Part shown: positions 3,542 through 17,744 of the stretch, in pieces
How the letters are laid out: the number at the start of each line of letters is the position of its first letter
Position numbering within the stretch: position 1 is the stretch's first letter
Source of the DNA: Prevotellaceae bacterium
GTDB lineage: Bacteria > Bacteroidota > Bacteroidia > Bacteroidales > Bacteroidaceae
Reading direction: 5' to 3'
Assembly: GCA_022508665.1 (NCBI GenBank)
Contig: JAFLUT010000016.1
Coordinates: forward strand, 1 to 33,757
Length of the DNA stretch: 33,757 nt
Translations under genes and position numbers: made by a program
The notes under the pieces: model-generated
What the model saw: only the letters and a program-made list of their open reading frames with translations
Told to the model about the DNA's origin: nothing
Databases searched by the model: none

Positions 3542-5992
3542 ATGGGAAAAAAGAAATCGACGTTGAAGAAGTCGGGCATAAATAAGCGAGAGTTGGCAGA
3601 AGTGCTAACGAGGTTTTTCAGCAATAAGAGTGGGCGTGCGTTCACGTTGAAGCAAATTTTCAGCGAGTTGGGACTGTCTGCTCACCCCATGCGCATGCTG
3701 TGTGTGGATGTGCTGAACGAAATGCTGGAGGATGGATATATAGCCAAGAACTATAACGGAGACATTGTGTTCAACGGCACTGCGCACACGGCAGAGGGTG
3801 TGTTCTCACGCACTAATGGCGGACGCAACTTTGTGGACACCGACGACGGTGTGGGCATTGCCATCTATGACGAGGATACGCTGCATGCCATGCCTGGCGA
3901 CCGTGTGAAGGTGAGCATACACGCCAAGAGGCGCGGAAGCAGCAAGTTGCATGGCGAGGTGATGGAGATTGTCCGTCGCAGCGAGAAGCCTTTTGTGGGG
4001 ACTATTCAGGTGCATCACAGTGTGGCATTCCTCGACCTGCCCAACGGACAGTTGCTGAACGACATCGTCATCCCCATGGATAAGTTGAAGGGGGCGAAGA
4101 ATGGCGAGAAGGTGGTGGTGAAAGTGACGGATTGGCCTATGGATGCGAGAAACCCTATCGGAGAAGTGGTGGACGTGCTGGGCGAGGGCGGAGACAACAA
4201 CACGGAGATGCATGCCATACTGGCTGAGTATGGATTGCCTTATAAGTACCCCGAGAATGTGGAGGCGGCTGCCAACAGGATTGACGCAGGAATAACGGAA
4301 GAGGAGATTGCGAAGCGTGAGGACTTCCGCGAGACGTTCACTATCACGATTGACCCACGCGATGCGAAGGATTTTGACGATGCCATATCTATAAAGAAGA
4401 TAAAGGATGGCTTGTGGGAGGTCGGAGTGCATATTGCCGACGTGAGCCACTATGTGCTGGAGGGGTCGGTCATCGACACGGAGGCTCAGCAGCGAGCAAC
4501 ATCTGTATATCTTGTGGACCGCACAATACCGATGCTTCCGGAGCATCTGTGCAATCAGTTGTGTTCGCTCCGTCCGAATGAGGAGAAACTTACGTATTCC
4601 GTCATCTTCAATATGAATGAGGATGCCGAGGTGCTGAGTTCGCGCATAAAGCACACCGTGATAAAGAGTTGCCGCCGATACACCTACGAGGAGGTGCAGT
4701 ATCTGCTGGAGCAGAACGGCGAGGCTCGCGAGTGTGAGTTGATACGCCAGGGAAAGGCGATGCCAACTCAGCCTATCCCTGCACAAGAGGTGCTGGCTGA
4801 CACGGAACTGAATGCCTTTCGTGACAAGTTGGAGGCGATAGACCCTGCGAAAATCCCTGCCACTCCTGTGCCAGACGACCACCGCAAGGGGGAGTATGCC
4901 GACCAACTGATAACGCTGAACCGCATGGCGCACAAGTTGCGTGACGCACGTTTCAAGGATGGCGCTATCAACTTCGACCGCGAGGAGGTGAGGTTCGAGA
5001 TAAACCCCGATGGCAAGCCTATACGTGTATATTTCAAGAATGCAAAAGATGCTAACAAACTGGTGGAGGAGTTTATGCTTCTTGCCAACAGAACTGTGGC
5101 GGAGAGTGTGGGCAAGGTAAAGAAAGGGCAGACACCAAAGACCCTACCCTACCGCATACACGACATGCCAGACCCTAATAAACTGGATAATCTTGCGTCT
5201 ATGGCATCTCGCTTCGGTTTTCACCTCGTAACGCAGGGCAAGAAAACAGATGTGGCACAGAGTCTGAATAAACTGCTCGGCGATGTCAAGGGATTGAAAA
5301 TGCAGAACCTCATAGAGAACGTCTCACTGCGTGCTATGCAGAAGGCGTGTTATTCCACTTATAACATTGGGCATTACGGTCTTGCTTTCGACTATTATAC
5401 TCACTTCACATCTCCTATCCGTCGCTACCCCGACTTAATGGTGCATCGTCTGCTGACACGCTATGCTGATGGGGCAGCCAGCGCCAGCCAGAAGAAATAT
5501 GAGAACCTGTGCGACCATAGTTCTAAAATGGAACAATTGGCGGCAAGCGCAGAGCGTGCAAGCATAAAATATAAGCAGGTGGAGTTCATGGCTGACAAAA
5601 TTGGCGAAGAATACGACGCACACATCAGCGGAGTGACGGAGTTCGGCATATATGCAGAGATTGACGAGAACCATTGCGAGGGTCTTATCGCTGTTCGTTT
5701 TCTTGGAGACGAAGCATTTGATTTTGATGACCGCAATTTCTGTCTGGTGGGCAGACAAACACGCCGTGTTTTCTCTCTTGGCGACCCAATACGCATAAAG
5801 GTAGCGAATGCTAACCTCTACCGCAAACAACTTGACTATGAACTGGTCGAGAAGTTATCTACCGATGACTTAGGCGCCCCCTCCACAGTATTTTACCAAT
5901 CTTTCATTGGCAAAGAAAAGGGGAAAGCAGGAAAAGCCCCTAAGGTGTCAAAGAAAAATGGAGGAAAGCAGAAGACAAGAAAAAGGAAATGA
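3542..5992 (+). CDS. rnr: Ribonuclease R
   Basis: RNase R is a processive 3'-5' exoribonuclease of the RNB family that degrades structured RNA. The 816-residue product has the standard order: an N-terminal winged-helix segment (about 15-80), cold-shock OB domains (about 85-220), the RNB catalytic domain with the metal-binding aspartates of DPRDAKDFDDA (about 271-281) and the later HFTSPIRRYPDLMVHR segment, a C-terminal S1 domain (about 689-775), and a lysine-rich tail. Length agrees with full-length RNase R rather than RNase II. The ATG at 3542 precedes a basic N-terminus. It converges on lgt, with a strong hairpin directly after the stop. Confidence 0.97.
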   Translation: MGKKKSTLKKSGINKRELAEVLTRFFSNKSGRAFTLKQIFSELGLSAHPMRMLCVDVLNEMLEDGYIAKNYNGDIVFNGTAHTAEGVFSRTNGGRNFVDTDDGVGIAIYDEDTLHAMPGDRVKVSIHAKRRGSSKLHGEVMEIVRRSEKPFVGTIQVHHSVAFLDLPNGQLLNDIVIPMDKLKGAKNGEKVVVKVTDWPMDARNPIGEVVDVLGEGGDNNTEMHAILAEYGLPYKYPENVEAAANRIDAGITEEEIAKREDFRETFTITIDPRDAKDFDDAISIKKIKDGLWEVGVHIADVSHYVLEGSVIDTEAQQRATSVYLVDRTIPMLPEHLCNQLCSLRPNEEKLTYSVIFNMNEDAEVLSSRIKHTVIKSCRRYTYEEVQYLLEQNGEARECELIRQGKAMPTQPIPAQEVLADTELNAFRDKLEAIDPAKIPATPVPDDHRKGEYADQLITLNRMAHKLRDARFKDGAINFDREEVRFEINPDGKPIRVYFKNAKDANKLVEEFMLLANRTVAESVGKVKKGQTPKTLPYRIHDMPDPNKLDNLASMASRFGFHLVTQGKKTDVAQSLNKLLGDVKGLKMQNLIENVSLRAMQKACYSTYNIGHYGLAFDYYTHFTSPIRRYPDLMVHRLLTRYADGAASASQKKYENLCDHSSKMEQLAASAERASIKYKQVEFMADKIGEEYDAHISGVTEFGIYAEIDENHCEGLIAVRFLGDEAFDFDDRNFCLVGRQTRRVFSLGDPIRIKVANANLYRKQLDYELVEKLSTDDLGAPSTVFYQSFIGKEKGKAGKAPKVSKKNGGKQKTRKRK

Positions 5993-6953: not shown

Positions 6954-8057
6954 TCAGACATTGAAACGGAAGTGCATTATGTCGCCGTCCTGCACCACGT
7001 ATTCCTTGCCCTCTACGCCGAGTTTACCAGCCTCGCGCACTGCCGACTCGCTGCCGTACTTGATGTAGTCCTCATACTTGATGACCTCGGCACGGATGAA
7101 CCCTTTTTCGAAGTCGGTGTGAATGACTCCTGCACACTGCGGCGCTTTCCAGCCTTTGCGGAATGTCCATGCCTTGACTTCCATTTCGCCTGCCGTGATG
7201 AATGTCTGCAAGTTGAGAAGGGCATAAATGGCTTTTATCAGTCGGTTGCAACCGCTTTCCTCTAAGCCCATGTCTTCAAGGAACATCTGCTTTTCCTCGT
7301 AACTCTCCAACTCGGCAATGTCTGCCTCTGTCTGCGCACTGATGACTATTAACTCTGCATCCTCGCCCTTAATGGCCTCACGCACTTGCTCAACGTATGC
7401 GTTGCCGTCCTTGGCGCTTGTGTCGTCCACGTTGCAGACGTAAAGCACTGGCTTTGTGGTGAGCAGAAACATATTTTTGGATGCCGCCACTTCCTCGTCG
7501 TTCTCCAGTTCTACAGTGCGAGCAGACAGTCCTTTTTCCAACGCCTCCTTATATCGCAACAGCAGTCCATACTCCACCTTTGCCTCCTTGTCATGCCCCA
7601 CGTTGGCGAGTTTCTCCGTCTTCTTTATTCGAGCCTCAACTGTTTCAAGGTCTTTCAGTTGCAGTTCTGTGTCGATGATTTCCTTGTCACGCACGGGATC
7701 AACGCTGCCGTCCACATGCACGATGTTGCCGTTGTCGAAGCATCGCAAAACATGGATGATAGCGTCGCACTCACGTATGTTGCCAAGAAACTGATTTCCC
7801 AATCCTTCGCCCTTGCTCGCACCCTTCACAAGACCTGCAATATCTACAATGTCGCACACCGCAGGTACGATGCGTCCGGGGTGAACCAGTTCCGCCAATT
7901 TCGTGAGCCTCTCATCAGGCACACTCACTTGTCCCAACTGGGCGTCAATAGTACAGAAAGGGAAGTTTGCCGCCTGTGCCTTAGCACTCGACAGGCAGTT
8001 GAACAATGTCGATTTTCCCACATTCGGAAGACCGACTATACCAGCCTTTAATGCCAT
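6954..8057 (-). CDS. ychF: Redox-regulated ATPase YchF (OLA1 family)
   Basis: YchF is a universally conserved P-loop ATPase of the Obg group that binds ribosomes. The 367-residue product starts [20 protein letters not shown] (the P-loop), followed by the switch-like [20 protein letters not shown], a coiled-coil middle region (about 130-200), and the C-terminal TGS domain ending [11 protein letters not shown]. The usual NKxD specificity motif is altered (CNVDD), as expected of YchF, which prefers ATP. The start at 8057 gives the canonical N-terminus. It is 37 nt downstream of GH127 on the same strand, with no promoter visible in the gap. Confidence 0.97.
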
Positions 8058-8094
8058 ATCTTTATATCTGTTCTGTTTTTATTTTAACTCTATT

Positions 8095-10200
8095 TTATCG
8101 TTTCTTGCCGCCCTGCACAGAGAGGGTGACGATAGACTGCGGTAACCATACAGACATCTTGCCTGCTCCACGATGCGCCCATGCATAGTAAGGTATCAGC
8201 ACGAGATGCTGGTCAGCAGTCTGCAACTTGCCATGCTCATCACGTAAGAGACTTTGGGCATCAGTGGTAAGTGTCTTTACATTGGTACTCATAATCTCCT
8301 TGTCGCCCAACTGGAACTGAGGTTTCTGATTGACAATCATAGTCGAGATGTCAAATTGATTGTCACACCACTCAGCGCAATACACGATAGGGCCACGCTC
8401 CACGCTCACACGTCCTCTGTCTGCCTCCACCTTGTCGTTAGCCCTTACCACACGAGGCTCCATGTCGAAATGCACCTCCACCTTGTCGCCCTTCTTCCAT
8501 TTGCGGTCGATGACAAAGTAGCCCTGCTGCAATTCGCCCTCTACTGGCTGACCATTCACTTTCACAGTATAGCCCAACTGCTTGCCATCGGCAAAAGCAT
8601 ACAGGTCGCTCGGCACGACTTCGCCTCTCACCCATCCCGGTATGCGGATGTTGAGCGCATATTCCCCTGCTCCGCCATTAATTTTCAGCGTAACATCGCC
8701 ATCCCAAGGATAGTTCGTCTGCTGCTCCAGTTCCACCTTCTTCTTTCCCACCTGCACGTTCACTGTGTTAGAATTGAAGAGGTTGATGTAAAGGCTATTG
8801 TCCTTCACGGCATATATGTACTGAGGCAATGAAGGGATGAAACGTGCTGCATTCGACGGACAGCAAGCACATCCAAACCACGGCTGACGGCGGTGCTGAC
8901 CTGCGCTCTCCAACGGATTGGGATAGAAGAAATTGCCTCCGTCGATAGATATTCCCGAAATCACACCATTGTAAAGGTTACGCTCCAACGCATCATAATA
9001 TTTCGAGTCACCATGCAATAGGAACAGTCGGTAATTAAGATACACCTGAGCAATGGCTGCACAAGTCTCGCAATAGGCAGTCATATTAGGAAGTTCGTAA
9101 TTCCTTCCGAATGCCTCGCCACTTGCCGTAGCACCAACACCACCAGTAATGTAAAATTTCCTGCTTACGATATTCTCCCAAATGCGGTCAATAGCATCAA
9201 TATAACTCTGGTCACCAGTCAGCGCTGCGATGTCTGCCATGCCGGCATACATATATCCTGCACGAACAGCGTGACCCACTGCCTCATCCTGCTCCACCAC
9301 TGGCTTGTGGCTCTGGCTGTACTGGTTCAGTTTGTGCAAATATCCGCCCTTATCATACAGTCCGTGACTGTGGAAATATCCTTTTTCATCATACTGCCCA
9401 TTCTCATTTCCTCCCCACGAAGCATCGCGCTTGCCACGCTTGTCGAGGAAGAACTTTGCCTGCTCCAGATACTTCTTGTCGCCTGTTGCAATGTAGAGTT
9501 TCGCCAACCCCATTTCGGCAATCTGATGCCCAGGCACAACGCTTGCCTGCCCGGGATTGTCGCCCACCTCACGGCATACGCAGTCAGCATACTTGATAGC
9601 AATATCAAGCAAATTCCTTTTTCCTGTAGCATAATAGTGAGCCACCGCTGCTTCGCACAGATGACCAAGGTTGTAGAACTCATGACTCAAATCTTCCACC
9701 ATCTCCCAACGCTTCTTTCCAGCCCATGGATGAGGATGTTCGGGATTTTGTGTGCGTGAAGTATAAAGGTATCCGTCAGGCTCTTGTCCCGATGCGATGA
9801 CAGCAATCACGCTATCCACGTATTTGTCCAATCTGCCACCTTTGAATTTAGCATTCGGATAAGTCTGCAATAGATAACTCGCACCCTCAATAGTCTTATA
9901 TGGGTCGGTATCATCAAAAGAGAAAGTGCCTTCCTTTATCTGAAACACCTTGCTCGGGTCTTTCAGATGTTCAGCCGCATTGCTGAAATTGGAGTAACGT
10001 CCAGTCTCTTCATTTTTCGAGAAAGCCAGAGGTATAGTCACATCCTGACTCGCCTGAAGTCTCTGCCCCCAAAAAGTATTCTGCGCCACCTTCACCTTCG
10101 TAAATGGCACTTGGGTGATATTGTACCCACCGTTCTTGTCCTGCGCAGTCATTCCTGCGGATATGGCAGCCGCCAAAGTCAATACAACAAGTTTTTTCAT
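8095..10200 (-). CDS. GH127 beta-L-arabinofuranosidase, secreted
   Basis: The 701-residue product belongs to GH127 (formerly DUF1680), which releases beta-linked L-arabinofuranose. A signal peptide (MKKLVVLTLAAAISAGMTAQ) is followed by an (alpha/alpha)6 barrel and C-terminal beta-sandwich domains. The active site of the Bifidobacterium enzyme HypBA1 maps well: acid/base Glu at E362 (GEAF), zinc ligands E378 and C380 in YCETC, and the nucleophile/ligand pair C446-C447 in CACCPSN. The 16-residue gap E362-E378 and the 2-residue gap to C380 equal those in HypBA1. Its start is 25 nt after the stop of the specificity-subunit gene, and I see no TAnnTTTG in that gap, so its transcription may depend on the restriction operon. 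Confidence 0.92.
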   Translation of the reverse strand: MKKLVVLTLAAAISAGMTAQDKNGGYNITQVPFTKVKVAQNTFWGQRLQASQDVTIPLAFSKNEETGRYSNFSNAAEHLKDPSKVFQIKEGTFSFDDTDPYKTIEGASYLLQTYPNAKFKGGRLDKYVDSVIAVIASGQEPDGYLYTSRTQNPEHPHPWAGKKRWEMVEDLSHEFYNLGHLCEAAVAHYYATGKRNLLDIAIKYADCVCREVGDNPGQASVVPGHQIAEMGLAKLYIATGDKKYLEQAKFFLDKRGKRDASWGGNENGQYDEKGYFHSHGLYDKGGYLHKLNQYSQSHKPVVEQDEAVGHAVRAGYMYAGMADIAALTGDQSYIDAIDRIWENIVSRKFYITGGVGATASGEAFGRNYELPNMTAYCETCAAIAQVYLNYRLFLLHGDSKYYDALERNLYNGVISGISIDGGNFFYPNPLESAGQHRRQPWFGCACCPSNAARFIPSLPQYIYAVKDNSLYINLFNSNTVNVQVGKKKVELEQQTNYPWDGDVTLKINGGAGEYALNIRIPGWVRGEVVPSDLYAFADGKQLGYTVKVNGQPVEGELQQGYFVIDRKWKKGDKVEVHFDMEPRVVRANDKVEADRGRVSVERGPIVYCAEWCDNQFDISTMIVNQKPQFQLGDKEIMSTNVKTLTTDAQSLLRDEHGKLQTADQHLVLIPYYAWAHRGAGKMSVWLPQSIVTLSVQGGKKR

Positions 10201-10225
10201 TATAATATAATAATATGTGTGTTTT

Positions 10226-11200
10226 CTATAATTTATTTAGGACTCCAAGCAAATCCATATCGTTCAACTTCTCATCAATGGCTTTAGGCAACATAATGGA
10301 TGCCAATCTTTCGCCTTTCGGTTTTCGTCCATAGGAAAATTTGAAGCGATTATGGGAAATACACATGGAATAAAACAATTTTTCTCTGATTGTCATCGGA
10401 CGAAGTGGCAACAGAACCGTCACATCAGAATTGGGTACAAATTCCGACACTGATACATAACTGTATGTATGACTTCCTTGACCATTTGTAGATACATATA
10501 ATGTACCTTTAGGATATACCTTTTTTTGAGGTACAAGATTTTTATTCACATACGCATCCACACTTGTGTTTTGAGTGTAACTCGGACGTATATACGGCAC
10601 CCAATTGACGGTTTCTTTGATAGGAGAACGCAATACATCGGTAGATGCTATGCCATTTTCGAGACGGAAAAGGGTATTGAGCGGCACCAGTTCCTGCCTC
10701 GCTGCTGTGACTGTAGATTTATCGGATAGAGCAGATACTTCAACAGAATTAACCATACGTGCTTTGAATTGTGGCATAGAGAAAACTTTCACATATTCAG
10801 GAATATCCTCAAGCACAGGTATCTGCAAATCTTTTAATGTCTCGTTTGCTTGACGACCATAACTATAACGGAACTTATTATGACGCAAGCACATACAGTA
10901 AAATAGTTTGACGGCATCAGACATTTCAACACGAGGAATCAAGCAGAATAAATCACGCCCAGAATAATATGGTTCTTTTTGTAAAAAAGATTCCATAACA
11001 GAGCCTCCTGCCGCCACAGAAATAGAACCTGCAGGATTGGGAGAAATCCAAGGAATAGGAAGAACTCTTGCTGTTACACCATTATTTTTAGATGTACGAG
11101 CAACAAAATTAATGCCTTTAGGGGTCTGCTCCATAGAATTTAATTCCAGATCAACCCCATACCGCACCTCAAACAAATCTTTCACTGCACACGTTCTCAT
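10226..11200 (-). CDS. Restriction-modification specificity subunit, two TRDs (BcgIB-like)
   Basis: The 324-residue product looks like the DNA-recognition (S) subunit of a Type I/IIB system. It has two related halves, each a target-recognition domain. Residues 98-128 (KLFYCMCLRHNKFRYSYGR...) and 274-305 (KLFYSMCISHNRFKFSYGR...) are clearly duplicated, with the helical spacer at about 130-172 between them. Two TRDs imply a split recognition sequence. BcgIB, the specificity subunit of BcgI, is about 340 residues, close to this one. The start overlaps the upstream stop by 4 nt (ATGA), so translation is probably coupled. The target sequence cannot be predicted. A Type I HsdS is the alternative, but there is no HsdR here. 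Confidence 0.83.
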   Translation of the reverse strand: MRTCAVKDLFEVRYGVDLELNSMEQTPKGINFVARTSKNNGVTARVLPIPWISPNPAGSISVAAGGSVMESFLQKEPYYSGRDLFCLIPRVEMSDAVKLFYCMCLRHNKFRYSYGRQANETLKDLQIPVLEDIPEYVKVFSMPQFKARMVNSVEVSALSDKSTVTAARQELVPLNTLFRLENGIASTDVLRSPIKETVNWVPYIRPSYTQNTSVDAYVNKNLVPQKKVYPKGTLYVSTNGQGSHTYSYVSVSEFVPNSDVTVLLPLRPMTIREKLFYSMCISHNRFKFSYGRKPKGERLASIMLPKAIDEKLNDMDLLGVLNKL

Positions 11201-13056
11201 CCTTCTTCCTCCTCAATAGCATTGTGGTCATCCATACTTTTCATATTGAACAGGTAGAAGTTTTTGACTGTTTCCAAGAAATCCTCCTCTGTCAGCCTAT
11301 CGTATCGAGCCTCCAAATAAGCCTCGGCACACCACTCGTCATGCGCTGTTACATGCCGCATCACACTAAACTCTGGTATCACCTCCCTATTGGTATAGGC
11401 GCTTACCCATTGCCTCTTTGTCTCTTCCCATTGCTGGTTAGCATCAATGCGTCCTTTGTTCTTCCGTTTAACAAATCCGTCGTTACGACAATATCCGAAC
11501 CATGTTTTTTTATGTTCTGTGTATGGAACATGGGCTGTCAGCACAACAGCACAAGTGACGGTATTCACTTTTGAGTTGTAAAACAGTTCCTCAGGCAGAG
11601 AAAGCACGGCTTCCAGAGAATGTTTATCCAAGATTTTTTTCTTCAAAACAGCAGATTTTCCTGTCACATCATTCACACAACTGATAGGCATAATTGCTAC
11701 GCACTTACCTCCTTTCTCCAGCATCGAGAGGTTATTTAGCACAAATTCCAGTTCTTCCGTTCCCTTTCCTTTGTTTTTATAGGGCGGATTGAGCAATCCC
11801 ACAGTAGGGTGGAATTTATTTCTTAACGCTTCTGTATCGATAGATAAACAGTCTCCATGTGTTACGTTTGTTTTTCCATCGCGATGCACTATCATATTAG
11901 AAATGAGCAAAGTGTAAATCTCATCGTCATATTCAATGCCTACCAACTGATGCTTCTTAATATGGTTTTCAGTAGCGATGTCGCCATGCGCATCCTGCAG
12001 CATCATCTTCATCGCACTCACAAGGAAGCCGCCCGTTCCAGCACAGTTGTCAAGCACCACGCTGTCCTTGTTCACCTCCGCCAACTCGCAGAACAATTCC
12101 GTGATATGCGGCGGTGTCAGCACAATGCCCAAGCCTTTATCATTGTTAGCATAACGCAGAAACTCCACATAAAACTGGCTAATGGTATCAATATATTTAT
12201 GAGTAACCATAAAGCCATTTATACGCTCGTCACAATTTGCAATAAGATTGGTCAGATACAGTTTCCCCTCTGGCGTAGGGTTGTTAACGCTGTTGTTCGT
12301 TATGATAAATTCATATCCAGCAACAAGAGATTTCTTGTTTTCAACAGGCACATCGCTCCCTTCCAGTTCCGCCTTGATAGCACTGAACAAGTTTTTCACC
12401 AAATTCTCCGTACTCTCATAATTTTTATATTCAGCCCTAAACCGCTCATTCTTCAACGCTATCAAAATACCGCTAATCAGCAAAGCCCTCAGCCTTTCCT
12501 TTATTTTCTTCTCCTGCAACTCCTCATTGATTTCCTTTGTATAGTCAATCAATTTATTAAAGTCTTGGTTAAACTTATAGTTGCTCTCAATCAGTCCATG
12601 ATGATAACTGTCCATGTCGAGCAGTTCTCCGTCGCTGAACAGTTTATGAAACTCCCTTTCCTCGCAAAGCTGTATATAATGCCCCAACTCATACAACGAG
12701 TCCTTTTCACCACTAAATCCAATGGCTATTACATCAAACTCCTTCGACAGAAACGACGCATACAGCAAAGCCCCGTCCATCGCATAGTCACGGTAAGAGT
12801 CAAGCGTCTCCGACTCCTGCTTCTTTATATCCGCCTTGCATTCAACTACAATCACCAAGTTCGGATAGCGTCCGCAAGTAATAACAAAGTCAGGGAAACC
12901 TTTCCCCATGCCCGACTTAGAAGCGTGCTGCAACAACTTGCCTATCTTCTTGTTCTCGGTTTGCTGCTCCTCCACAACTATTTCCTTGTCATCATAATAT
13001 CCCTTTTCTTTCAGAAACTTGCGGAACAACTGCGATGTTTTTGCTTCGTTTGCCAT
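11197..13056 (-). CDS. BcgI-like restriction endonuclease-methyltransferase fusion (Type IIB/IIG)
   Basis: The 619-residue protein joins a nuclease to an N6-adenine methyltransferase. The N-terminal part has a PD-(D/E)xK site: PD at 55-56 (GFPDFVI) and E72-C-K74 (VVECKAD). A helical linker leads to the methyltransferase with motif I DNCAGTGGF (336-344) and catalytic motif IV NPPY (423-426). Cleavage and methylation in one chain, with a separate specificity subunit encoded next to it, is the BcgI arrangement (BcgIA is about 637 residues). BcgI cuts on both sides of its site. The ATG at 13056 is chosen because the longer in-frame start at 13077 is a TTG within the promoter's -7 element. All motifs are intact, so the gene looks functional. 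Confidence 0.88.
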   Translation of the reverse strand: MANEAKTSQLFRKFLKEKGYYDDKEIVVEEQQTENKKIGKLLQHASKSGMGKGFPDFVITCGRYPNLVIVVECKADIKKQESETLDSYRDYAMDGALLYASFLSKEFDVIAIGFSGEKDSLYELGHYIQLCEEREFHKLFSDGELLDMDSYHHGLIESNYKFNQDFNKLIDYTKEINEELQEKKIKERLRALLISGILIALKNERFRAEYKNYESTENLVKNLFSAIKAELEGSDVPVENKKSLVAGYEFIITNNSVNNPTPEGKLYLTNLIANCDERINGFMVTHKYIDTISQFYVEFLRYANNDKGLGIVLTPPHITELFCELAEVNKDSVVLDNCAGTGGFLVSAMKMMLQDAHGDIATENHIKKHQLVGIEYDDEIYTLLISNMIVHRDGKTNVTHGDCLSIDTEALRNKFHPTVGLLNPPYKNKGKGTEELEFVLNNLSMLEKGGKCVAIMPISCVNDVTGKSAVLKKKILDKHSLEAVLSLPEELFYNSKVNTVTCAVVLTAHVPYTEHKKTWFGYCRNDGFVKRKNKGRIDANQQWEETKRQWVSAYTNREVIPEFSVMRHVTAHDEWCAEAYLEARYDRLTEEDFLETVKNFYLFNMKSMDDHNAIEEEEG

Positions 13057-13074
13057 ATTTTTGATATAATAATG

Positions 13075-13110
13075 CAAAAGTACACTTTTTTTATCTTTCT
13101 GCCAAGAAAA
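13075..13110 (-). promoter_or_regulatory. Promoter of the restriction-modification operon
   Basis: The minus strand reads TTTTCTTG (13103-13110), a 20-nt spacer, then TACTTTTG (13075-13082). Transcription would begin roughly 10-15 nt before the ATG at 13056. The divergent GH43 promoter has the same TTTTCTTG-N20-TAnnTTTG layout. Confidence 0.75.
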
Positions 13111-13183
13111 GCAAGAAAATAGAACATTTCACAACATCTTTTTATGCCGCCATTATCCATTGTGCATAACACAAAAACACGCC

Positions 13184-13219
13184 TTTTCTTGCACACCCAC
13201 TCAAAAATATGTATCTTTG
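13184..13219 (+). promoter_or_regulatory. Promoter of the GH43 gene
   Basis: TTTTCTTG (13184-13191), a 20-nt spacer and TATCTTTG (13212-13219) form a Bacteroidetes promoter about 30 nt before the ATG at 13249. Its position also rules out the longer in-frame start at 13144. Confidence 0.78.
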
Positions 13220-13248
13220 CCACACCAATATACAAAAAACCAAAACCT

Positions 13249-14337
13249 ATGAAAAAGATTTTACTGATGCTTGTGGCACTGTTGCCCCTGCTATCTGCCG
13301 CCAAACCTAAGCATAAAATTCCCTCGGAAAAGAAAATGGCAGGCTATGTAATGGTGTATCACAAGGATGCTGACCACGGGTTGCACATGGCATACAGTTG
13401 GGACGGCTACACATGGACTGCGCTGAACGACGACCGCCCAATCATTGCAGGAGACACTATCGCCGAACAGAAAGGCATCCGTGACCCATTCATTTTCAGA
13501 GGTCCCGACGGAGGTTTCTGCGTGGCAATGACCGACCTGCACATTTATGCCCAACGCGAAGGCTACCGCACCACAGAGTGGGAGCGTGACGGCAAAAAAT
13601 ACGACTGGGGCAACAACCGAGGGCTTGTGCTGATGAAATCTTTTGACCTAATCAACTGGACACGCACCAACCTCGACTTCACAAAACTCACCAGCCCCAC
13701 AGGTGCATACAATCCCGACGGCTCGCCTATCTCATGGAAAGATGTCGGCTGCGTGTGGGCGCCAGAAATGACCATTGACGACCGCGACGGACGCATAATG
13801 ATGCACTTCACCACTCGCTTCATGCGTGGCAGAAACCAAATCTACTACGCATATATGAACGACGACTTCAACGCCATGACCACCGAACCCAAGTTCCTCT
13901 TTGGAGCGGCAAAAGACGAGAACGGCAACTTCAAGTCCAACATGATAGACTCTGACATCACCAAGATTGGCGACACCTATCATCTGTTTGCCGTTGAGAA
14001 CGGAATGCCCAAGCACGCAACAAGCGACTGCATCACAGGGTCATACGTCATAGACCCCTCATATAAAGACGGAGAGACAAAGGCACACGAAGCGCCCAAC
14101 GTGTGGAAACTCATCGGGCAAAACAAATGGATTTTGATGTTCGACAACTACTCTCGTCAGCCGCACAACTTCGGTTTCCTCGAGACTACCGACTTCAAAA
14201 CATTCACCCCTCTTGGCTACTTCGACGACCCTAACTGCCCGATGAAACGCACTAATTTCTCCGAACAGAAACACGGAGCGGTGGTGCAGGTCACTAAGGC
14301 AGAACTGAAAAAACTCATTTCTCATTGGAGCAAATGA
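13249..14337 (+). CDS. Glycoside hydrolase family 43-like protein, secreted
   Basis: The 362-residue product begins with a signal peptide (MKKILLMLVALLPLLSAA) and then a five-bladed beta-propeller of the GH43/GH32-type clan. It has the GH43 hallmark RDPF (D79, expected pKa-modulating Asp) and a VWAPEM motif (E173), common in arabinan- and xylan-active members. The classic N-terminal NP...PDP strand is not obvious, so it is a divergent GH43 and its exact activity (alpha-L-arabinofuranosidase or beta-xylosidase) cannot be assigned. The neighbouring GH51 and GH127 favour arabinose release. The start at 13249 fits both the promoter and the signal peptide. A strong terminator follows 30 nt after the stop. 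Confidence 0.82.
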   Translation: MKKILLMLVALLPLLSAAKPKHKIPSEKKMAGYVMVYHKDADHGLHMAYSWDGYTWTALNDDRPIIAGDTIAEQKGIRDPFIFRGPDGGFCVAMTDLHIYAQREGYRTTEWERDGKKYDWGNNRGLVLMKSFDLINWTRTNLDFTKLTSPTGAYNPDGSPISWKDVGCVWAPEMTIDDRDGRIMMHFTTRFMRGRNQIYYAYMNDDFNAMTTEPKFLFGAAKDENGNFKSNMIDSDITKIGDTYHLFAVENGMPKHATSDCITGSYVIDPSYKDGETKAHEAPNVWKLIGQNKWILMFDNYSRQPHNFGFLETTDFKTFTPLGYFDDPNCPMKRTNFSEQKHGAVVQVTKAELKKLISHWSK

Positions 14338-14366
14338 CGGTAATGTTACATTCCCGATATGATTTG

Positions 14367-14399
14367 AAACCTGTGTTGCATGTCAATACAGGTTTTTTT
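14367..14399 (+). terminator. Intrinsic terminator of the GH43 gene
   Basis: A 12-bp stem with one G-T pair (14367-14378, AAACCTGTGTTG, with 14384-14395) closes a 5-nt loop and runs into a T tract (14393-14399). It ends 3 nt before the -7 element of the GH51 promoter. Confidence 0.85.
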
Positions 14400-14401
14400 A
14401 T

Positions 14402-14409
14402 TATCTTTG
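14402..14409 (+). promoter_or_regulatory. -7 element of the GH51 gene
   Basis: TATCTTTG is an exact TAnnTTTG, about 40 nt before the GH51 ATG. No TTG sits at the -33 distance; that position falls in the preceding terminator hairpin. Confidence 0.7.
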
Positions 14410-14448
14410 CAACGCAATTTTTACTGAACTAAAACAACAAAGCCAATT

Positions 14449-16455
14449 ATGACATTGAAAACAACCTTGCAGACATTGACGATAGCGACTGCTCTTGGAG
14501 CATCGCTGACGGCATCGGCTCAGAAAGTGAAGGCTCCAGAAGGAGGCAAGCAAATCAGTAACGAACTCATAGGCATATTCTTTGAGGACATCAGTTACTC
14601 GGCAGACGGAGGACTGTATGCCGAGTTGGTGCAGAACGGCTCATTCGAGTACAACCCCACAGAGCGTGACGGCTGGGGGGCTGGCACAGCATGGAGAATG
14701 ATACGCCCCGGGCATTCATTGGGTATGATGATGCCTCAAATGGAGAATCCTATTCATCCGAACAATCCTACCTACATGCAGTTGACAATAGAGCGTGTGG
14801 GCCACTATTACGACTACGACGGCTGGACAGGCTTCGGCATCCGCAACGACGGCTTTGACGGCATCGCTGTGAAGGCTGGCGAAAAATACGACTTCTCCGT
14901 GTTCCTCCGCAACGCAGACAGCAAGAGCAAGGAGGTGCGCATCGTCTTGGTGGAAGAGAAGCGCGAAGAAGGGCAGCGCCACACCACTCCTACCGTTTTG
15001 GCAGAAGTGACTATCACCACCGAGGGCAGCGACTGGAAGAAGTATCAGGCAACTCTCACCGCCTCTGCCGACTGCGAAAAGGCAAACCTGCAGTTGCTCT
15101 GCCTCACTACTGGTGTGATAGACGTAGATATGGTTTCACTCATGCCCGAAGACACCTACAAAGGTCATGGTCTGCGTCGTGACATGGTAGAGGCATTAGA
15201 AGGACTTAAGCCCAAGTTCATGCGTTTCCCCGGCGGATGCGTAGTGCATGGCGGTGGCGACGGCTTCTGGAACACCTACCGCTGGAAAACCACTATCGGT
15301 CCGAAAGAACAGCGCCGTGGCTTGAAGAACACATGGGGCTATCACCAGTCAATGGGATTAGGCTATTTCGAGTATTTCCAACTCTGCGAAGACATGGGCA
15401 TGGAACCTCTCCCAATCTTGCCATGCGGCGTAAGTTGCCAAGGCACTAACGGCGGTTGGGGCATGAAAGGACAGGCTCAGGACGTTGTGCCTATGAGCGA
15501 AATGGACGAGTGGGTGCAGGATGCTCTCGACCTCATCGAGTGGGCTAATGGCGATGCCACAACCACATGGGGAAAGAAACGTGCCGAAGCAGGTCACCCC
15601 GAGCCATTCAACCTCAAATACCTCGGCATCGGCAACGAAGAAAAGATTACCCCCGAATTTGAAGAACGCTTCAAATATATGTATAATAAGGTATTGGAGA
15701 AATACCCCAACATCATCATCGTCGGCACGGCGGGTCCCGGCTCACACAAAGGTAACCCCGACTTCGACAACGGCTGGCGTCTTGCCGAGGAAATAGACCT
15801 TCCAATCCTCGACGAACACTACTACGAGCCACGCGACTACTTCCTCAACAATCAGCAGAACTACGACAACTACCCACGTGACCGCAAGACAAAAGTCTAT
15901 CTTGGCGAATATGCGGCAAAGGACAAAAAGATGCTTGATGCGCTCTACGAAGCCCTCTACCTCTTAGGCATCGAAAGAAACGGCGACATCGTTACCATGA
16001 CGAGTTACGCACCTCTCTTCGCCAAGAAGCACCACGAGAGTTGGAACCCCGACCTCATCTACTTCGACAACAGCCGAGTATATCTCACATGCAGTTACTA
16101 CGTTCAGCAGATGTTCGGAACGACGTCGGGCAACTACTACTATGGCGATGTGGCAACATTCTCCGACGGCGACAAATACCAAGGCACATCCTGCGTTCTC
16201 AACACCGAAAAAGGCGAACTCTACATTAAAGTCGTGAACGCAAGCGACCAGCCAAAGACTGCCAACATAGACCTCGCCCGTTTCAAGAAACTCCCCAAGA
16301 CAGCCGAGGTTATCACTATCAGCGGCGAGCCAGAGCAGGAAAACAACTATGATGCTCAACCTATCGCACCAAAGACCAGCAGCGTGAAAGTCGCTAAGCA
16401 AATGACCTTCACCGCCGAGCCTTACTCCTGCTCATCAATCAAGATTAAATTCTGA
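14449..16455 (+). CDS. GH51 alpha-L-arabinofuranosidase, secreted
   Basis: This 668-residue enzyme matches GH51, which removes terminal alpha-L-arabinofuranosyl units from arabinan and arabinoxylan by a retaining mechanism. After a signal peptide (residues 1-24) comes a GIFFEDISYSADGGLYAELVQN segment, typical of secreted family members with an extra N-terminal carbohydrate-binding-like insert (about 80-230), then the TIM barrel and a C-terminal beta-sandwich. The acid/base is E397 in GIGNEE and the nucleophile E487 in YLGEYA. It has its own -7 element and is separated from GH43 by a terminator, so the two are expressed independently. The stop codon falls in the first unit of a short tandem repeat. 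Confidence 0.93.
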   Translation: MTLKTTLQTLTIATALGASLTASAQKVKAPEGGKQISNELIGIFFEDISYSADGGLYAELVQNGSFEYNPTERDGWGAGTAWRMIRPGHSLGMMMPQMENPIHPNNPTYMQLTIERVGHYYDYDGWTGFGIRNDGFDGIAVKAGEKYDFSVFLRNADSKSKEVRIVLVEEKREEGQRHTTPTVLAEVTITTEGSDWKKYQATLTASADCEKANLQLLCLTTGVIDVDMVSLMPEDTYKGHGLRRDMVEALEGLKPKFMRFPGGCVVHGGGDGFWNTYRWKTTIGPKEQRRGLKNTWGYHQSMGLGYFEYFQLCEDMGMEPLPILPCGVSCQGTNGGWGMKGQAQDVVPMSEMDEWVQDALDLIEWANGDATTTWGKKRAEAGHPEPFNLKYLGIGNEEKITPEFEERFKYMYNKVLEKYPNIIIVGTAGPGSHKGNPDFDNGWRLAEEIDLPILDEHYYEPRDYFLNNQQNYDNYPRDRKTKVYLGEYAAKDKKMLDALYEALYLLGIERNGDIVTMTSYAPLFAKKHHESWNPDLIYFDNSRVYLTCSYYVQQMFGTTSGNYYYGDVATFSDGDKYQGTSCVLNTEKGELYIKVVNASDQPKTANIDLARFKKLPKTAEVITISGEPEQENNYDAQPIAPKTSSVKVAKQMTFTAEPYSCSSIKIKF

Positions 16456-16519
16456 CACCGTAACTGATAAGATTCTGACACAATAAACTGATAAAATTCT
16501 GATAAAACAACTGGTAAAA
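16450..16519 (+). repeat. Three 23-24-bp tandem repeats at the end of GH51
   Basis: Units begin at 16450, 16473 and 16497, each opening TTCTGA and carrying AACTG(A/G)TAA in its second half. The GH51 stop TGA is part of unit 1. More diverged copies seem to continue to about 16580 (CTGACAATAATCAT and similar). Confidence 0.7.
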
Positions 16520-16596
16520 CTTGGCGATAATTATTCTAAGATTTTAACAATAATCATTCTACAAATCTGACAATAATCATCTCCCAACATCACTCT

Positions 16597-16630
16597 AAAA
16601 CGCTTTGCAAGGTAGTTGCAAAGCGTTTTT
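16597..16630 (+). terminator. Strong intrinsic terminator downstream of GH51
   Basis: A perfect 14-bp stem (16597-16610, AAAACGCTTTGCAA, with 16616-16629) with a 5-nt loop ends in a T run. Because the outer stem is A/T, it would also give a T tract on the minus strand. It insulates the dcw cluster from GH51. Confidence 0.9.
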
Positions 16631-16758
16631 CATTTTCCCTATAAAGAGTTTCTCAACCACCCCACAAACCGCTTCTATATACCCTGCGGACTGACCTCCT
16701 TTCATAATATCCAACCACCCCCTTTCCTCATGCTCAGCCGTGCGCATCCTTAAAATTA

Positions 16759-16842
16759 AACTTAAATTTTATAAAATATAAGTTTAATTTTATAAAATCT
16801 AACCTATATTTTATAAAACATAACTTATGTTTTAATAATCCG
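16759..16842. repeat. AT-rich 21-bp tandem repeat with a palindromic core, four units
   Basis: Units begin at 16759, 16780, 16801 and 16822. Units 1 and 2 match at 18 of 21 positions, and 1 and 3 at 18 of 21; unit 4 is decayed (14 of 21 to unit 3). Each of the first three has the core ATTTTATAAAA at exactly 21-bp spacing (16766, 16787, 16808), two helical turns apart, so the cores lie on one DNA face. Confidence 0.85.
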
Positions 16843-16853
16843 CATGGCATAAA

Positions 16854-16922
16854 TGGGCATCAGCAGACTGCTGGTCTGGGCATCGGCACACTATTGACAT
16901 GGACATCGCCGATAAATAAATA
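16854..16922. repeat. 23-bp tandem repeat, three units
   Basis: Units begin at 16854, 16877 and 16900 with TGGGCATCAGCA, TGGGCATCGGCA and TGGACATCGCC. Units 1 and 2 agree at 16 of 23 positions, and 2 and 3 at 13. The phase may continue weakly to about 17000. Confidence 0.7.
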
Positions 16923-17170
16923 CCATGGATATGAACGATTAAGTCCGTTCTTGGTTATTCCTCCGATACGGTTCTTTCGAGCGGTTACTATCCCGTATAA
17001 TTGATGTCACATTTGGCAGATTTATGTTTAATGGAATTTGCAATCCCGGACTTTGCAAAACAACTATCCCCCACCATTTAAGCCTATTGTAAATGCAGGT
17101 GTAAATCAGCACATTATGAAGTTATAAACACCCCTGTTAATAAGTTTTTGGATTTTTTTTGAATAAAATG

Positions 17171-17185
17171 TGGGGAATTGTGGGG
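17171..17185 (+). promoter_or_regulatory. Putative MraZ operator: two TGGGG boxes, 10-bp period
   Basis: TGGGG at 17171-17175 and again at 17181-17185 are separated by 5 nt. In E. coli MraZ binds TGGG(N) direct repeats with 5-nt spacers upstream of its own operon. Here the pair covers the -33 zone of the mraZ promoter, an arrangement suited to autorepression. A third box in phase is absent. Confidence 0.75.
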
Positions 17186-17193
17186 GAAATGCT

Positions 17194-17201
17194 TATATTT
17201 G
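17194..17201 (+). promoter_or_regulatory. -7 element of the dcw cluster promoter
   Basis: TATATTTG is an exact TAnnTTTG. The expected -33 position is GGG within the MraZ boxes instead of TTG, so the promoter is likely weak without help or uses a different contact. The leader to mraZ would be about 65 nt. Confidence 0.75.
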
Positions 17202-17216
17202 CACATCATTTGAAAA

Positions 17217-17256
17217 ATGAGGGGCAGATGAGCAGGGGCAAAGCATGATAAATTGA
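17217..17256 (+). other. Chain of three overlapping micro-ORFs in the mraZ leader
   Basis: MRGR (17217-17231), MSRGKA (17228-17248) and MIN (17245-17256) follow each other, each stop overlapping the next start as ATGA. mraZ itself starts 17 nt after the last stop. Translation is unproven and ATGA is a common string, so this may be chance. Confidence 0.25.
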
Positions 17257-17273
17257 GCGGAAAATATCAATAA

Positions 17274-17744
17274 ATGAGATTTATAGGGGATTATCCAGCA
17301 AAGACCGATGCGAAGGGAAGGGTTTTTCTTCCTGCGGCATTTAGGAAGACGCTTGAAGCAATGGGCGAGCAAGGGCTTGTGTTGCGTCAAGACATGTTTC
17401 AGAAGTGTCTTGTGCTATACCCTAAATCCGTATGGGAGGCAGATTTGGAGGAGTTGAAGGGCAGTCTCAATAAGTGGAACAGGCAGCAACAGAACATTTT
17501 GAGGGAGTTTGTGCTTGGCGCTGACGAAATTGAACTTGACGCACAAGGCAGGTTGCTGATTTCCAAGAAGAAACTGCAAGACGCTGGCATAGAGAATGAG
17601 GTGCGTTTTCTGGCGATTGACGACCGCATTGAAATCTGGAGCAAGCAGGCATTGGAGGAGATAGAGAAAAATGCCGCCAGTCTTGGAGACGAACTGGAGG
17701 CGCTGCTGGGACAGACGGGTGCAAGTGGAATGAGGACAATATAG
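17274..17744 (+). CDS. mraZ: Transcriptional regulator / division protein MraZ
   Basis: MraZ is a DNA-binding protein of the double AbrB (SpoVT-like) fold that represses its own dcw operon in E. coli. The 156-residue product has both half-domains: residues 7-18 (YPAKTDAKGRVF, the DxKGR motif) and about 80-92 (EIELDAQGRLLI, the DxQGR motif). Length is typical, with a short extra C-terminus. It is the first gene of the cluster, behind a -7 element and two TGGGG boxes. The ATG at 17274 gives the family N-terminus MRFIG. The next gene starts 14 nt after its stop. Confidence 0.96.
   Translation: MRFIGDYPAKTDAKGRVFLPAAFRKTLEAMGEQGLVLRQDMFQKCLVLYPKSVWEADLEELKGSLNKWNRQQQNILREFVLGADEIELDAQGRLLISKKKLQDAGIENEVRFLAIDDRIEIWSKQALEEIEKNAASLGDELEALLGQTGASGMRTI

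Follow-up and report, generated by a model that had tools for sequence, protein, structure and literature searches.

Restriction-modification (R-M) enzymes with separate RM and S subunits are described, in the sections of PMC3874165 available to us, as assemblies of two RM chains and one S chain (2RM:1S) that methylate both strands and cleave on both sides. This (RM)2S assembly is known for BcgI (PMC3874165) and BsaXI (PMC11997821), according to excerpts of the two reports, the first of which lists TCA N5 GTC as the site of NgoAVIII. The R-M system of Staphylococcus phage phi-42 (X94423) is Sau42I, termed BcgI-like in excerpts of the literature and classed as Type IIS-like in the review PMC6532042. 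Movement of TRDs between positions is known for the S subunits of Type I and Type IIG enzymes (DOMO; excerpt of PMC3077401). Here, we examined an RM-S gene pair in the genome of a Prevotellaceae bacterium (GCA_022508665.1); the window is the whole 33,757-nt stretch of contig JAFLUT010000016.1 that was analyzed. The pair is very likely a BcgI-like R-M system (Type IIB, which falls within Type IIG), probably acquired horizontally, that lies upstream of a GH127 gene probably read through from the RM promoter. No account of this pair was found among the matches listed, which is not a claim that it is absent from print.

Organization and catalytic motifs of the RM subunit

The features of the locus are listed in Table 1, together with a box of the form TAnnTTTG, which we take to be the Bacteroidetes −7 element. 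The RM and S genes overlap by 4 nt (11197–11200, ATGA on the minus strand), and an in-frame TTG at 13077 offers an alternative RM start that would give 626 aa.

Table 1. Coordinates of the RM-S pair and adjacent features in the window
Feature	Position	Strand	Remarks
GH127 gene	8095..10200	-	Pfam; starts 25 nt after the S stop
Direct repeat, downstream copy, ATATAATAAT	10205..10214		10 bp; weak
S subunit gene	10226..11200	-	324 aa; two TRDs, TRD1 (residues ~1–150) and TRD2 (~165–324)
RM subunit gene	11197..13056	-	619 aa from ATG; PD-(D/E)xK-type nuclease region N-terminal, followed by N6-adenine methyltransferase
Direct repeat, upstream copy, ATATAATAAT	13064..13073		10 bp; brackets RM-S with the downstream copy; weak
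Candidate Bacteroidetes −7 box, TACTTTTG	13075..13082	-	18 nt before the RM ATG
GH43-like gene	13249-14337	+	without a Pfam hit up to E 5
GH51 gene	14449-16455	+	alpha-L-arabinofuranosidase domains, GH51 type (Pfam)

The RM protein carries P55-D56-x15-E72-x-K74 near its N-terminus, AGTGG at residues 339–343, and NPPY at 423–426. Pfam placed an N6_Mtase domain on residues 289–570 (1.4e-29) and no second domain on the chain, and the Type IIG RM model of PADLOC covered residues 3–606 end to end (602.5 bits, versus 117 bits for the best Type I model). Taken with the conserved residues described below, these matches point to a nuclease and an N6-adenine methyltransferase combined in one chain. The genome contains one RM copy at E≤0.001.

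The window RM was aligned with 38 relatives, giving 39 rows; this set leaves aside L010–L018 (second pieces, or Type I-like M proteins matched only in part), L020 (an RM remnant), L058 (which ends at a contig edge), and L059 (a 24% partial match). E72 and K74 were conserved in all 38 rows that have a residue there, P55 was conserved in 37/38, and position 56 was D or E in 36/38. NPP was present in 39/39 rows, followed by Y in 37 and by F in 2. The motifs are thus intact, as an earlier note made from the sequence alone had stated. The structure model of RM was poor (mean pLDDT, 63.4), and its Foldseek matches were therefore given little weight; the N-terminal region was predicted with fair confidence as helix, strand, helix, two strands (57–61 and 67–74), helix, and further strands. 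In 10 of the 39 rows (L002, L003, L008, L063–L066, and L070–L072), the RM ORF exceeds 700 aa and has a C-terminal tail resembling one fused TRD; some of these longer ORFs also have an S-sized ORF downstream.

Intact genes are no proof of activity, because the related NgoAVIII, described as intact, had no detectable m6A in 25 strains in the part of PMC6789123 accessible to us. The window pair might likewise be a methylation-only or silent system, with an inactive nuclease or unexpressed genes; however, its nuclease residues are intact and conserved, both ORFs are open, and a TAnnTTTG box precedes RM, and we regard such a system as quite improbable. The RM-S module is real and of an ordinary kind, and its reading frames and motifs are apparently intact.

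The S subunit and its TRDs

The two halves of S share an SYGR core. Methylase_S matched S in two stretches (4.8e-9, Pfam), and the Type II specificity model of PADLOC matched it over its full length (262 bits), so that a separate two-TRD S adjoins RM. The ORFs, Pfam, and PADLOC therefore bear out the nuclease-methyltransferase and the two-TRD S with ATGA overlap described in the earlier note, and homology, architecture, and motifs lend good support to its reading of the two genes as BcgI-like RM and S. The S structure model was better than that of RM (mean pLDDT, 79.8). The modeled chain resembled the Type I S subunits 1ydx and 1yf2 (Z 13.5 for both; rmsd 8.2 and 11.2 over 283 and 285 aligned residues) and the BsaXI S (Z 8.7, rmsd 10.7, 247 aligned), with large whole-chain rmsd values to known S subunits (approximately 8–17 Å).

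When TRDs were compared among S proteins of 300–370 aa, the halves of the window S fell into two families, here named A (first) and B (second). TRD A occupies the first position in L052–L057, where it is 50–60% identical to TRD1 of the window, and TRD B occupies the second position in 8/8 close relatives, with 55–68% identity to TRD2. L050 (S at 7863–8867) and L051 (S at 7863–8870) have B-like TRDs at both positions, 60% and 66% identical to TRD2 of the window, and their own two halves are 67% alike; their targets may therefore be nearly symmetric. The S of an Escherichia coli plasmid (L078, 4847–5881) has the reversed order, B then A (47% and 59% identity), which in a pseudo-symmetric S could leave the target unaltered.

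The PADLOC matches, full-length relatives, and conserved catalytic motifs together identify RM-S as a further BcgI-like Type IIB/IIG system. By analogy with its family, the complex would probably contain two RM chains per S chain; TRD1 and TRD2 would recognize one half each of a bipartite target, the halves being separated by a few bases, and each RM would methylate an adenine in its own half-site, one per strand. The (RM)2S assembly, m6A modification, two-sided cleavage, and role in phage defense are all features expected from relatives, and the pair is probably a two-gene defense enzyme that would mark host DNA and cut incoming DNA. An alternative, a Type IIG enzyme that has a bipartite target yet cleaves on one side only and is hence not strictly Type IIB, would accord with the Type IIS-like classification of Sau42I (PMC6532042), since the cleavage pattern is not readable from sequence; on the other hand, a separate RM with a two-TRD S is the architecture of two-sided cutters in the consulted sections of PMC3874165, and we consider the one-sided enzyme very improbable.

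Distribution and genomic contexts of related RM-S pairs

Within the genus, 16 of the 45 genomes, including that of the window, had some RM match at 1e-10, with an identity of 37% at most in the other genomes. In a sample of the order, 13/393 genomes, again including that of the window, matched RM at E≤1e-60. The closest relatives found were full-length proteins of 62–76% identity from eight MAGs (with titles of Bacteroidaceae, Bacteroidales, Prevotella, Muribaculaceae, and Paludibacteraceae); a ninth close match, L058 (82% identity), ends at a contig edge. In all eight complete close relatives S lies directly 3′ of RM, with a 4-nt overlap in five, and the neighboring genes differ among them, save for the gene just after S, which is common to L053–L055. 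Among annotated genes, the best RM relatives were on plasmids of Shewanella, Arthrobacter, Acinetobacter, Alicyclobacillus, and E. coli (37–41% identity), and Staphylococcus phage genes were related at 30–31% identity. S adjoins RM in the phage and plasmid records examined, one pair being annotated as bcgIA and bcgIB; for E. coli, the complete S was recovered by ORF reading, and the gene table of the record includes only part of it. A search of viral contigs with single-sequence patterns, which reach close relatives only, found no close RM-S relative.

Such a widespread but scattered occurrence, with changing gene neighborhoods, is what is expected of a pair that moves horizontally. Because no RM match in a congener is above 37% identity, and the closest relatives found occur in other Bacteroidales MAGs and in other contexts, acquisition of RM-S at its present site is likely, and the pair would thus probably have come by horizontal transfer to stand immediately upstream of GH127.

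Some further features of these loci were observed. The gene after S in the three MAGs L053–L055 is small and lies on the same strand after a gap of 34–39 nt, as GH127 does in the window; by eye, we take it to be SufE-like. An RNase R-like gene is found in the vicinity of RM-S at three of the nine loci (L051, 3463–5709; L052, 3675–5834; window, 3542–5992), identified by Pfam in the window and by eye in L051 and L052, a recurrence that could be due to chance. Close to RM-S in L052 (1–3643), there are ORFs resembling, by eye, Type I hsdS and hsdM, of which the hsdM-like one is weakly RM-like (5e-7).

Gene order and the neighboring sugar genes

The order in the window is lgt, ychF, GH127, S, and RM, all on the minus strand, then the GH43-like gene and GH51 on the plus strand, followed by mraZ and the dcw cluster, in which ftsI and the other dcw genes are named by the look of their sequences. 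The earlier note had called the flanking sugar genes GH127, GH43, and GH51; Pfam agrees for the first and the last, whereas the GH43 assignment lacks a Pfam match, and the NCBIfam alpha-arabinofuranosidase model matched that gene below its cut-off (51 bits, cut-off 500). RM and S run in the same direction as GH127 and directly upstream of it, a co-directional arrangement with a gap of 25 nt on which the earlier note was silent.

To describe gene order in the genus, the best matches of GH127, the GH43-like gene, GH51, ychF, and mraW in the 44 other genomes were compared pairwise for distances within 6 kb. GH127 was within 6 kb of the GH43-like gene in 0/24 congeners and of GH51 in 0/37, and the GH43-like gene was within 6 kb of GH51 in 0/23. 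The pairs GH127-ychF (0/38), GH51-mraW (0/39), and ychF-mraW (0/39) were likewise never within this distance in congeners; the separation of all these genes may partly be an artefact of fragmented assemblies and of counting best matches alone. The stretches around GH127 (20 loci), GH43 (9), ychF (10), and mraW (10) contained no other window neighbors, with few exceptions: lgt next to ychF, dcw genes next to mraW, recO in the vicinity of GH43 (L042 and L049), GH127 at approximately 8 kb from a GH43-like gene (L048), and weak matches to paralogs. Window positions 6954–17744, where ychF, GH127, RM-S, the GH43-like gene, GH51, and mraZ are joined, have this arrangement in one of the 45 genus genomes. 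The gene arrangement looks peculiar to the window genome. The earlier note had held that a gene order common to all relatives would speak against an insertion; the order was absent from all 44 congeners. The DNA upstream of GH127 gave only matches of chance size in congeners and is too diverged for an empty-site comparison.

The earlier note had further placed RM-S within an arabinose-releasing locus. An insertion into a pre-existing GH127-GH43-GH51 locus would agree with the adjacency of these genes in the window genome, with the lower GC content of the module (approximately 0.40–0.43 versus 0.47–0.54 in the flanking genes), and with the 10-bp repeat that flanks it. A repeat of this length was reached in 0.4% of 3,000 Markov shuffles, and one was found in two of nine loci (the window and L056); no repeat of at least 14 bp convincingly brackets the module. 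Because 1 of 72 cross-locus control pairings also reached at least 10 bp, the repeat is no more than a hint of an insertion scar. Against such an insertion, the sugar genes are together in no congener, and GH127 lies on the minus and the GH43-like gene on the plus strand, so that the two did not form one operon. Since the three sugar genes are not neighbors in congeners, no ancestral arabinose locus is shown to have been interrupted; the location claimed in the earlier note is not supported in that form, insertion into such a locus is unlikely, and the sugar genes are incidental neighbors of RM-S.

Putative promoters and probable read-through into GH127

A TAnnTTTG box lies 33–60 nt before the GH127 ATG in 18 of 19 congeners, the exception being L035 (L040 is not among these 19 promoter loci). 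In the window, no such box was found within 150 nt before the GH127 ATG, and the nearest is 903 nt upstream, inside S; the GH43-like gene has the box TATCTTTG 29 nt before its ATG. A TAnnTTTG box also occurs within 150 nt upstream of RM in 6/8 close relatives, and RM-S may therefore well carry its own promoter. A scan for sigma-70-like sites was not informative (11 versus 8.4 expected), and terminator-like sites numbered 5 versus 2.3. The simplest reading is that GH127 now has no promoter of its own and would be read from that of RM-S, which makes it a candidate third gene of the RM-S transcript; judged from the promoter boxes alone, transcription that starts at the RM promoter would probably read through into GH127. 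More tentatively, RM-S may have landed in the GH127 leader and replaced or captured its promoter, GH127 expression then following that of the defense genes and the target perhaps being TCA N5 GTC-like, a combination that we hold as a possibility of doubtful standing.

With this locus, a further chromosomal BcgI-like system is added from Bacteroidales, and systems of this kind move between unrelated contexts. If cloned, the pair could provide a Type IIB enzyme of new specificity; enzymes of this type are employed in 2b-RAD. Its placement before GH127 is a minor curiosity, and also a small test case for whether an acquired R-M pair alters the expression of a host metabolic gene.

Comparison with known systems

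The sequence relationship to a described BcgI-like system runs through phi-42. Sau42I resembles the window pair in having RM followed by S, overlapping genes, and similar sizes (ORFs of 639 and 337 aa), and its RM shares 30% identity with that of the window over 93% (5e-52). In contrast, Sau42I is phage-borne, and its S halves had no detectable likeness to the window S at the cut-off used.

A Neisseria gonorrhoeae locus (L020) is a candidate for NgoAVIII, judging from the description in the available part of PMC6789123. Its S has TRDs in the order A then B, as in the window (45% and 52% identity), and the C-terminal part of its RM is 41% identical to that of the window; it differs in that, in the gonococcal strain examined (L020, 3369–5832), RM survives as a remnant of 274 aa, with a transposase-like ORF alongside, and S is open. 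These TRD identities are insufficient to assert a motif for the window enzyme, and a target similar to TCA N5 GTC is a guess.

The Type I M and S methyltransferases (EcoKI, StySJI, and EcoR124) share an N6_Mtase core and the S fold with the window pair, which differs from them in having a nuclease region fused N-terminally to M and no helicase subunit alongside. A Type I R-M system was rejected for the window: no HsdR lies beside the pair, which is flanked by GH127 and the GH43-like gene, and RM has only the one Pfam domain.

BcgI is like the window pair in its RM and S architecture, as judged by the description in the accessible sections of PMC3874165. BsaXI RM (8w0p) was found by a profile of 16 RM proteins (6.8e-16) and was not among the matches of a single-sequence phmmer search with the window RM. 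According to the excerpt of PMC11997821, it differs from the window RM in its length of approximately 916 aa and its additional knob and paddle parts. The D-x15-E-x-K of the window resembles the BsaXI cluster of E73, D90, E105, and K107 (same excerpt), a likeness in the pattern of residues. Like the window pair, BsaXI (PDB 8W0P, 8W2P, and 8W2Q) combines an RM, matched by the profile in its methyltransferase part, with a two-TRD S.
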